A DNA stretch of 64,000 nt, taken from Geoalkalibacter sp. (lineage in GTDB: Bacteria > Desulfobacterota > Desulfuromonadia > Desulfuromonadales > Geoalkalibacteraceae). The notes under the pieces are model-generated. The model was given only the letters and a program-made list of their open reading frames with translations, had not been told where the DNA came from and did not search any database. A program made the position numbers and the translations under genes. Shown here one piece after another: positions 14,187-17,659 of the stretch (positions are counted from its first letter, which is position 1; each line of letters starts with the position of its first letter). Location of the stretch: NCBI RefSeq assembly GCF_030605225.1, contig NZ_JAUWAV010000014.1:1-64000 (forward strand). The letters run 5' to 3'.

Positions 14187-14963
14187 ATGGCGATCCATCC
14201 GTTAAAACAACTGCGCGAGGCGCTGCTGTCCCCAGCAACCTCGCCGATTTCCCGCAACGGCGAAGCAGGCCAGGATTTCGCCGGCCTGCTCGATCGCACG
14301 CGGAGCGCCCATCAGCCTCTGTGCGGCGAACAGGCGCGCTCGCTGGCCGCGCTCATGAAACTGGAAATGATGGCCGGCTTGGTGTCCTGGGACGATGAGG
14401 GCAAAAAAGATCCCTCGCCGCTCGCGCAGCTTGCTTCCTTGCCGACGCTGCCGCGCTCCCCGGCGGCGAACCCCGAGCAAGTCCGTCAAAAATTCACGCT
14501 GATGTCGGAAAACCGTCCCGCGCCGGTGCGCCCGGCTTCCTTGCTCAAGGCCGAAAGCGGCAGTGATGCAGGCTCCCTGGATCAGATCGTGGACAAGGCG
14601 GCGCGGCGCTACCAGCTGGCGCCCGAGCTGATCAAGGCGGTCATCAAGGCGGAAAGCAGCTTCAACCCCAAAGCCGTCTCGCCCGCAGGCGCGCAGGGCC
14701 TGATGCAGCTGATGCCGGCCACGGCGCGCGAGCTCGGCGTGGACAATCCCTTCGACCCGGAACAAAATGTCATGGGCGGCACCCGTTATCTGCGCGATCT
14801 GCTCAATCGTTACGAGGGCGATCTGGACAAGGCCCTGGCCGCCTACAACTGGGGCATGGGCAATCTGGCGCGCAGCAACGGCCGCCTGCCCGAAGAAACC
14901 CGCAATTATCAGGTACGGGTCAAGCAGTATCTGGCCGAGTTCAACAACCGGCGTACCGCCTGA
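14187..14963 (+). CDS. Lytic murein transglycosylase (SLT domain), short form
   Basis: 258 residues. The first ~135 are low-complexity and linker-like. The SLT catalytic domain at about 140-255 contains PELIKAVIKAESSFNPKAVS with the catalytic Glu in AESSFN, GLMQLMPATARELG, NVMGGTRYLRDLL and AAYNWGMGNL. It cleaves peptidoglycan glycan strands to make 1,6-anhydro ends. It lacks a recognisable signal peptide, unlike stand-alone Slt70. Short SLT proteins without signals are often exported by flagellar or pilus machines to open the wall, and a sigma-54 promoter would agree with that, but this is inference. ATG 14187 has a strong GGGAGG site at 14176-14182. An in-frame extension upstream lacks one. 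Confidence 0.88.
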   Translation: MAIHPLKQLREALLSPATSPISRNGEAGQDFAGLLDRTRSAHQPLCGEQARSLAALMKLEMMAGLVSWDDEGKKDPSPLAQLASLPTLPRSPAANPEQVRQKFTLMSENRPAPVRPASLLKAESGSDAGSLDQIVDKAARRYQLAPELIKAVIKAESSFNPKAVSPAGAQGLMQLMPATARELGVDNPFDPEQNVMGGTRYLRDLLNRYEGDLDKALAAYNWGMGNLARSNGRLPEETRNYQVRVKQYLAEFNNRRTA

Positions 14964-14987: not shown

Positions 14988-15032
14988 GGCAACCCCAAAT
15001 TTTTGAGAAATTTAGGGTTGCCATTTTTTTTT
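14988..15032 (+). terminator. Intrinsic terminator of the transglycosylase gene
   Basis: GGCAACCC and AAATTT pair with AAATTT and GGGTTGCC around a short loop, followed by A and nine T residues (15024-15032). It begins 25 bases after the stop codon. Its right arm and T run also hold the -35 region of the first small-RNA unit. Confidence 0.92.
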
Positions 15033-15046
15033 GTTTTGCATAAGAT
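15018..15046 (+). promoter_or_regulatory. Sigma-70-type promoter of small-RNA unit A
   Basis: -35 TTGCCA (15018-15023), exactly 17 bases, -10 TAAGAT (15041-15046). Predicted start near 15053. The -35 box lies inside the terminator hairpin of the preceding gene. Confidence 0.65.
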
Positions 15047-15052
15047 TGCGCC

Positions 15053-15122
15053 ATGTTCCCCGGACGGCCTGACCGTACGGGGTTTGCCCCGTGATTCCCC
15101 CTCCTTCACGGGGCATTTTTTT
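15053..15122 (+). ncRNA. Putative small RNA A (about 70 nt), first of three tandem units
   Basis: Between the promoter at 15018-15046 and a T7 run at 15116-15122 there are two hairpins. A 5' stem pairs CCCCGGACGG (15058-15067) with CCGTACGGGG (15073-15082, one mismatch). A 3' terminator stem pairs GCCCCGTGA (15086-15094) with TCACGGGGC (15106-15114). The terminator loop is UUCCCCCUCCU, complementary to Shine-Dalgarno GGAGG. No convincing gene fits, although a 13-codon leaderless frame starts at 15053. Units B and C repeat the plan with different 5' sequence but nearly the same terminator stem. Function as a trans-acting RNA is inferred from architecture. Confidence 0.6.
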
Positions 15123-15203
15123 ATTCAGCGCCACCCTTCCAATTCAAAGCCTCCCACCAGCACGCCCCAAATCCAGCAGAGGTTAATTTTTTTTATTTTT
15201 TTA

Positions 15204-15232
15204 TTGACAACAGTGCTTTTCTTTTCTATTTT
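15204..15232 (+). promoter_or_regulatory. Sigma-70 promoter of small-RNA unit B
   Basis: Perfect -35 TTGACA (15204-15209), 17-base spacer, -10 TATTTT (15227-15232), inside an AT-rich tract. Predicted start near 15239. This is the strongest promoter of the three units. Confidence 0.75.
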
Positions 15233-15238
15233 CTTAGA

Positions 15239-15335
15239 AGAAACAAATCGCATACAAGCCCTTGTGCGAACGCATACCCAGTAATACCGTACAACCCTTG
15301 GCCCCGCGCACCTCCCTGACGCGGGGCATTTTTTT
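15239..15335 (+). ncRNA. Putative small RNA B (about 97 nt), second tandem unit
   Basis: A 5' stem pairs TCGC (15248-15251) and ACAA with TTGT and GCGA (ends 15269), with a two-base bulge. The 3' terminator pairs GCCCCGCG (15301-15308) with CGCGGGGC (15320-15327), then A and seven T. The loop CACCUCCCUGA again carries CCUCC, complementary to GGAGG. The linker between hairpins (about 30 nt) is unstructured by eye. The terminator arms match those of units A and C except for compensating G-C/U-A style changes, which argues for conserved structure. Confidence 0.65.
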
Positions 15336-15336
15336 C

Positions 15337-15364
15337 TTGACTTAAATTCTTAAAGCAATAATAT
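15337..15364 (+). promoter_or_regulatory. Sigma-70-type promoter of small-RNA unit C
   Basis: -35 TTGACT (15337-15342), 16-base spacer, -10 TAATAT (15359-15364). It begins two bases after the T run of unit B, so the units are packed end to end. Predicted start near 15371. Confidence 0.6.
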
Positions 15365-15370
15365 TAAAAT

Positions 15371-15456
15371 CAATAAACAATTTTACACCGCCTGGTTTCA
15401 CCGAAATCAGCCGGTTTCGCCCCGTGTATCTCCTCCCTGGCACGGGGCATTTTTTT
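15371..15456 (+). ncRNA. Putative small RNA C (about 86 nt), third tandem unit
   Basis: A 5' stem pairs CCG-C-CTGGTTTC (15388-15399) with GAAATCAG-C-CGG (15403-15414), with one C-C mismatch and one G-U pair. The 3' terminator pairs GCCCCGTG (15419-15426) with CACGGGGC (15441-15448), followed by A and seven T. Its loop UAUCUCCUCCCUGG includes CUCCUCC, a perfect complement to the GGAGGAG ribosome site of the next gene (15513-15519) and to any strong Shine-Dalgarno. The following 70 bases to the YyaL start hold a TAAAAT -10-like box at 15490 and nothing else clear. Confidence 0.65.

Positions 15457-15526: not shown

Positions 15527-17659
<2,133 letters not shown>

Follow-up and report, generated by a model that had tools for sequence, protein, structure and literature searches.

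Three tandem candidate small RNA genes in Geoalkalibacter and an anti-Shine-Dalgarno terminator loop that recurs across the Desulfuromonadales

Between an SLT transglycosylase-domain gene and a DUF255 gene of a Geoalkalibacter contig there are three successive units, each of them a promoter followed within a short distance by a terminator, and the question raised by this locus is whether these units are genes for small regulatory RNAs, and of which kind, or simply terminators that happen to have a C-rich loop. Throughout, the window is the whole stretch of DNA that was analysed, 64,000 nucleotides in length. The reading we prefer, with a probability of roughly 0.7 and judged from sequence comparison, is that the window carries three independently transcribed sRNA genes of a new anti-Shine-Dalgarno (anti-SD) family extending over the order, whose members, probably assisted by Hfq, would repress translation by covering ribosome-binding sites (RBSs). 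By the same comparison, the array is real and conserved, and very probably represents a new sRNA family of a known functional kind.

Anatomy of the array

The three units were read directly from the sequence at window positions 15018-15456 (Geoalkalibacter, Desulfuromonadales), and their parts are listed in Table 1. A promoter scan over 3 kb returned five sites where 0.6 were expected; four of these lie at the three promoters, one of the four being an alternative spacing of the third, and the remaining site lies inside the SLT gene. When four Geoalkalibacter loci are aligned, the spacers and linkers prove to diverge around conserved boxes, TTGACA and TAYTTT in unit 2 and TTGAC and ATATTAAA in unit 3. 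The terminators have the common form GCCCCGYG-loop-CRCGGGGC-A-T7, with arms GCCCCGTGA/TCACGGGGC in unit 1, GCCCCGCG/CGCGGGGC in unit 2 and GCCCCGTGT/GCACGGGGC in unit 3, A-T7 following each, and the terminator loop of every unit contains CCUCC. Thus both the three sigma-70-like promoters and the matching terminators with C-rich CCUCC loops, which had been claimed in the first-pass annotation, are present. It had also assigned a unit-specific 5' hairpin to each unit, and this holds for units 1 and 3, the only ones with a stable 5' hairpin, and not for unit 2, whose 5' region folds weakly (-5.6 kcal/mol here; -5.9, 0.0 and -0.3 in three congeners) and is a divergent portion of the array in the alignment of the Geoalkalibacter loci. 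Taken whole, units 1, 2 and 3 have folding z-scores of -4.4, -3.3 and -5.2. The suggestion that the units arose by duplication was not borne out, in that the terminator and its loop are common to all three and the 5' parts are unalike.

Table 1. Features of the array and its flanking genes (window coordinates)
Feature	Position	Strand	Remarks
SLT transglycosylase-domain gene, upstream neighbour	14187..14963	+	Pfam PF01464; upstream in six loci of the window's family
Promoter, unit 1, TTGCCA-N17-TAAGAT	15018..15046	+	Promoter scan; TTGCCA-N17 kept in G001, G002, G005
Candidate sRNA, unit 1 (type A), ~70 nt	15053..15122	+	Predicted start, from the -10 box
Unit 1, 5' hairpin	15058-15082
Unit 1, terminator	15086-15114		Loop TTCCCCCTCCT 15095-15105; T-run 15116-15122
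Promoter, unit 2, TTGACA-N17-TATTTT	15204..15232	+	Scan; boxes kept in four Geoalkalibacter genomes, spacer diverges
Candidate sRNA, unit 2 (type C), ~97 nt	15239..15335	+	Predicted start; 5' part weakly folding
Unit 2, terminator	15301-15327		Loop CACCTCCCTGA 15309-15319; T-run 15329-15335
Promoter, unit 3, TTGACT-N16-TAATAT	15337..15364	+	Scan; begins directly after unit 2 T-run; TTGACA in two congeners
Candidate sRNA, unit 3 (type B), ~86 nt	15371..15456	+	Predicted start
Unit 3, 5' hairpin	15387-15415
Unit 3, terminator	15419-15448		Loop ATCTCCTCCCTG 15428-15439; T-run 15450-15456
DUF255 (Thioredox_DsbH) gene, downstream neighbour	15527..17659	+	Pfam PF03190; syntenic marker

A further strong hairpin at 14988-15022, with a T-run to 15030, looks like the terminator of the SLT gene, since it stands directly 3' of it; the -35 box of unit 1 overlaps with its 3' arm. 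G002 has this hairpin too, and it is not apparent in G001 and G005, which do retain TTGCCA.

No protein gene could be fitted to the array, as had been claimed beforehand, the frames over the array and over type A, the type of unit 1, not being conserved. Four small ORFs (66-93 aa) overlap the array; what they share with relatives is mostly confined to the stem-loop segments, where three of the ORFs run into stops, and they were rejected as conserved proteins on these grounds. The one of 82 aa, on the minus strand, remains open for 79 aa in G002, is matched over ~30 aa elsewhere and meets a stop in G003. A leader peptide from the ATG at the predicted type A start was likewise rejected because its frame is not conserved: the 5' CATG is absent in 12 of the 27 type A units, and the frame that begins from it in the other 15 runs for anything from 1 to 34 codons.

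The terminator loop, its constraint and its spread

The rival explanation that survives best, improbable as we consider it, is that the hairpins are merely efficient terminators whose C-rich loop reflects base composition or helps termination, with no trans-acting RNA involved. Every unit is in fact a good intrinsic terminator, and one dispersed subgroup follows a Na/sulfate symporter gene. A simple scan of the array region found three terminator-like sites against 4.3 in shuffles, and as this count is not above chance, the case rests on the shared form of the terminators. It is this form that argues against the rival. A CTCC loop is found in only three of the 15 terminator-like hairpins of the window, namely the array units, and in six of the 105 in a 400-kb sample of the congener G001, three of which are the same locus; among nine weak matches from outside the order to the covariance model described below, with stems of the GCCCCG or ACCCCG type, CCTCC is found in just two. 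Moreover, each array unit has its own promoter and ends within ~110 nt of it. With 12 of 15 and 99 of 105 hairpins lacking CTCC loops, the view that these are generic terminators standing behind ordinary genes, which would speak against sibling RNAs, is rejected for the array; the exception is the dispersed subgroup, which does sit behind a transporter gene.

The loop and the stem have fared differently among the relatives. In 80 distinct units, covering 54 distinct stems, the loop contains CTCC in 77 and CCTCC in 71, against shuffled-loop means of 38 and 21. The paired variation of stem bases seen in the array extends to the relatives: across 83 distinct matches, in an alignment that was fitted to the model R1, the eight stem pairs are 98.2% standard and five of the eight change on both sides, and in a control where the partner was slid by 1-3 columns the pairing falls to 26-58%. 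Of the 90 model matches, three are plain hairpins (L041, L050 and L051); these were excluded when loops and 5' folds were counted and promoters scored, and were included in the stem-pair counts and among the 90 upstream regions of the sigma-54 count given below, identical rows being counted once. We conclude that the loop is conserved and that stem bases may change as long as their partners change with them. For example, the DHH-adjacent L037, L038 and L089 have the stem GCGTT/GGCGC and L025, L026 and L029 have GTGA/TCAC, with the loop CCCTCCT in both.

The 5' regions of the type A units fold below -8 kcal/mol in 27 of 27, with z below -1.5 in 21 of them and a mean z of -2.2; the 5' fold of unit 1 in the window is no better than shuffles (z -0.86). 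The type A sequences are too unlike to align, so RNAalifold gave no consensus for their 5' hairpin and single-sequence folds were used instead. Two pairs of the type B 5' hairpin change on both sides, a weak signal from six sequences, with 35 of 500 shuffles reaching this covariation, and among units other than type A, 28 of 60 are without a 5' fold below -8 kcal/mol. In the promoter scoring, the best score of the 27 type A units averages 8.1 out of 12, against 6.5 in shuffles, with 9 out of 12 reached by 10 units; in 23 the best -10 box has its end 31-45 bases upstream of the terminator, and in four the best score falls elsewhere; for many non-A units the scoring gave no convincing sigma-70 site.

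How far does the family extend? When the unit 1 terminator was compared at the nucleotide level with 58 genomes, matches at E 1e-5 or better came from 12 families of the order. The covariance-model search that the first-pass annotation had proposed was then run with R1, built from 42 terminators, and the family recurs in 85 of 98 genomes of the Desulfuromonadales (E up to 0.01), with 1-11 matches per genome, a recovery that is partly built in because R1 contains members from many of the searched genomes. It also favours C-rich loops, its E-values are rough, coming from a short calibration, and the matches and the alignment A4 lean to the model accordingly. At least two matches occur in 72 of the 98 genomes and a best E below 1e-5 in 51, and 13 of the 98 have no R1 match. 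The window's own genome has six matches in all, the array and C1:13360-13403, C23:58299-58340 and C52:869-908. In a class-wide draw R1 matched 91 of 146 genomes; 67 of these belong to the order, and the 24 from other orders gave E-values no better than 5.3e-5. In a phylum-wide draw it matched 10 of 99: besides the window's own genome there was a single one from the same class (E 0.006), and the remaining eight had E 0.0017 or worse. Among the matches listed in these two draws, none outside the order is below 1e-5. A strict type A pattern was found in three of 297 genomes drawn from the phylum, all three in the order. In a species-level collection 16 stretches were found, of which 13 have Desulfuromonadales-type titles (Geothermobacter and Geoalkalibacter among them), and one each is titled Deltaproteobacteria, Desulfobacteraceae and Demequina, the last of which we take as chance.

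Six of the better class-level matches outside the order were inspected, and since five of them have a CCTCC loop, a looser form of the unit may reach the whole class. L151, L152, L153, L155 and L156, from other orders of the class, are weak model matches with CCTCC loops. In L155 and L156 the hairpin follows coding ends that resemble each other and, as read by eye, have a CxxCH motif.

Relation to known RNA families

The comparison with Rfam, also proposed in the first-pass annotation, covered the window and 20 relative loci (21 sources), and no family was reached at its gathering score, by the array or by any of the relatives. Sub-threshold matches in cmscan were to anti-hemB (35.1 bits, E 1.8e-6, and 24.4 bits; gathering 49.5), to ar14 (22.3 bits, E 0.055; gathering 58.8) and, at chance level, to RF02278 (18.6 bits, E 0.37; gathering 50). 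One could therefore ask whether the array RNAs are homologues by descent of cuckoo/ar14, anti-hemB or RF02278, and it is these matches that speak for it; we regard such descent as very unlikely, all scores being below gathering, and the following comparisons bear on each of the families.

The ar14/cuckoo RNAs (RF02344; NfeR1, CcsR1-4) had been named beforehand for their likeness to the array in C-rich loops. The likeness stands as far as an anti-SD motif in hairpin loops and the presence of several copies per genome are concerned, and not in the score of 22.3 against 58.8 with RF02344. According to the available parts of PMC3927594 and PMC10746234, these RNAs have the CCUCCUCCC anti-SD motif in their loops and variable stems, and the ar14 consensus in Rfam also has CCUCCUCCC beside the terminator stem, a point in favour of kinship. 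Where membership of ar14 would call for CCUCCUCCC in every hairpin loop, the array has CCCCUCCUU, ACCUCCCUG or UCUCCUCCC, carried by the terminator loop only; the 5' hairpin loops of units 1 and 3 are without CCUCC, and CUCCUCCC is found only in unit 3. For NfeR1, an ar14 RNA, a translation block by pairing has been shown; it silences ntrB via such motifs and is Hfq-independent (PMC10746234, in part). Processing of a single transcript that also includes a DUF1127 gene yields the CcsR RNAs (PMC10253847, in part), whereas the units of the array are each preceded by a promoter of their own, in a genome where DUF1127 was not found. A search for DUF1127 (PF06568) was negative in all six genomes of the window's family, which argues against descent, and positive in one of the eight genomes searched; the neighbours of the array are SLT and DUF255.

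The Burkholderia anti-hemB RNA (RF02837) resembles the array in having two hairpins, with a U-tail at the terminator, and its model loop UCuCCUCCCUG closely resembles those of units 2 and 3. The CCUCC loop of the model, however, is in the first hairpin and not in the terminator, and the best match bridges units 2 and 3 of the array, with 82 nt where the model has 16. RF02278 (ncS27/bdhR1, with the related Bordetella S17) is likewise short and present in several copies in Burkholderia. Available parts of PMC5688073 describe Burkholderia double-hairpin RNAs whose CU-rich unpaired regions are complementary to RBSs, and those of PMC11722255 describe the RF02278-related Bordetella S17, which interacts with Hfq and represses its targets at the RBS in an Hfq-dependent manner. 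Against RF02278 stand the 18.6 bits of the array, as compared with a gathering score of 50, descent here being judged by this score. The RNAIII of Staphylococcus aureus, with its UCCC loops, is a large multi-domain RNA of another phylum. It resembles the array in a loop with a partial anti-SD motif (PMC3927594, in part).

What the array does share with the trans-acting anti-SD class is an unpaired CCUCC-type seed kept while the stems vary and, for the array and type A as far as sequence can tell, an own promoter and an intrinsic terminator with no conserved frame. By analogy, then, the family would work like the cuckoo/ar14 and RF02278 RNAs, and membership fails where tested. The sibling family of regulatory RNAs proposed in the first-pass annotation is thereby upheld, by the order-wide recurrence, the stem covariation, the loop retention, the promoters, the neighbourhood and the lack of an Rfam family. 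C-rich anti-SD RNAs have been described in Alphaproteobacteria, Betaproteobacteria and Staphylococcus (PMC3927594, PMC10746234, PMC5688073 and PMC11722255, each in part). As a family spread over an order reaches no Rfam gathering score in 21 sources, our findings suggest that the anti-SD loop design arose repeatedly. A literature search, with most subscription journals beyond its reach, gave no paper title naming an anti-SD-loop family in Desulfuromonadales. The accessible parts of two papers give riboswitch candidates of Geobacter, along with 48 terminator-stem and 10 sRNA candidates (PMC11109978), and predicted CsrB-type RNAs of Geobacter (PMC11934962), so that for a group with only such predictions and candidates in these sources, the present family offers concrete candidate regulators, one of them of sigma-54 type.

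Neighbourhood, proposed action and dispersed copies

A homologue of a window neighbour flanks the units in 31 of the 72 loci examined, many of the others having short flanks or being dispersed copies. In 20 of these 31 syntenic loci DUF255 lies downstream on the same strand, in seven a DHH-family gene lies downstream on the opposite strand, and in four only HAD or SLT is found, upstream; in the window, a DHH gene follows DUF255. The order of units is A-C-B in the window's genome, G001 and G002, and A, C-like, B in G004; it is A-B in G005, C-B in G003 (a stretch without unit A) and D-A in 12 further loci. From this synteny the array looks like an old one, inherited in place. The same-strand DUF255 gene in 20 of 72 loci could also point to a cis-acting leader or attenuator of that gene, a reading to which we give little credence, given that in seven loci the downstream gene is of the DHH family on the opposite strand, that further units are found away from this locus, the window's own genome having three such copies, and that three complete terminators in series with their own promoters are unlike one switch.

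Returning to trans-acting RNAs as the preferred reading, we infer a separate transcript for each unit, running from that unit's sigma-70-type promoter to its intrinsic terminator. The C-rich terminator loop, CCUCC with unit-specific flanks, would be the anti-SD seed; exposed, it would pair with the SD sequence of target mRNAs and block 30S binding, and translation would thereby be lowered, with Hfq probably held on the U7 tail. Siblings with different loop flanks (CCCCCUCCUUC, ACCUCCCUGA, UCUCCUCCCUGG), 5' parts and promoters may serve overlapping but distinct target sets under separate inputs, such a division of targets being suggested by the differing flanks. Together with the bases that close it, the type A loop gives CCUCCUU, which we take to be the 16S anti-SD as generally known rather than as read from the host 16S. 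When the 16S 3' end was looked for, RF00177 had no match in the window's own assembly, and 16S tail patterns matched one of six and none of seven genomes.

The complementarity expected of such a seed is found at the right place. Among 254 starts, mechanically chosen first ATGs of ORFs of 200 aa or more in the window and the G001 sample, a 6-mer complementary to loop A, B or C begins between -18 and -5 at 62, 48 and 38, respectively, against 8.0, 7.3 and 8.5 expected from the flanks, and shuffled loops reach these counts in 0, 0 and 4 of 200 cases; complements of 8 nt or more are found at 7, 2 and 5 of the 254. Since any CCUCC string is expected to complement the SD, these counts indicate a capability and not targets. 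An Hfq gene was found in 56 of 58 genomes, and every one of the 46 good-quality genomes has it. It is for the complements at SD positions together with the Hfq genes that we favour RBS occlusion by the terminator loop with help from Hfq. A role mainly as decoys, by which a G-rich RNA or an RNA-binding protein would be titrated and pairing with mRNA would matter less, would suit multiple copies with a shared single-stranded C-rich motif and is highly unlikely to us, as no partner was identified and the loop complements concentrate at SD positions.

Some copies away from the array have a different element upstream. TGGCA-N6-TTGC occurs 40-45 bases before the terminator in eight units (L030, L034, L035, L036, L128, L131, L132 and L136) and, with L091, where it is 67 bases before the terminator, in 9 of 90 upstream regions against 0.2 expected. 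Combined with a terminator-start pattern, it was found a single time in each of 10 of 98 genomes of the order, the six of the window's family all being among them; one match was obtained with the reversed control. We take this element, going by its familiar consensus, to be a sigma-54-type promoter, and a dispersed sibling thus appears from its sequence to be under sigma-54 control. The copy in the window's own genome, C23:58254-58340 (L128, about 955-1041), has the loop CCTCCTCC and the element 45 bases before the terminator. Of four such loci scanned, an ATG22-like transporter lies downstream in L131 and L136, and not in L128 and L132.

The surprise lies in the spread over an order, in one terminator-loop module behind different promoters and in the sigma-54-type member. 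It can be tentatively proposed, as something possible rather than probable, that the anti-SD-loop terminator is a reusable module, placed behind several sigma-70 types, one sigma-54 type and a transporter gene. If so, unrelated 5' ends would share one silencing head, and a network of RNAs would compete with 16S rRNA for SD sequences in these anaerobes. The family also offers a means of testing whether regulatory RNAs can have a terminator loop as their seed.

Other copies may be mRNA terminators or 3'-UTR RNAs, because one subgroup stands directly behind a transporter gene. L043, L045, L130, L135 and L137 have stems of the GTTCC/GGAAC or GCTT type directly behind a similar coding end, which suggests, at this level of evidence, 3'-UTR-derived RNAs; in L043 and L135 the gene before the hairpin is the Na/sulfate symporter. 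A TTTGTTGTGGCAGGC-like stretch (TTGGCAGGC in L138) lies ~50-70 bases upstream of the terminators of L024, L027, L143 and L138, and L024, L027 and L138 have a second CCTCC in the 5' part.
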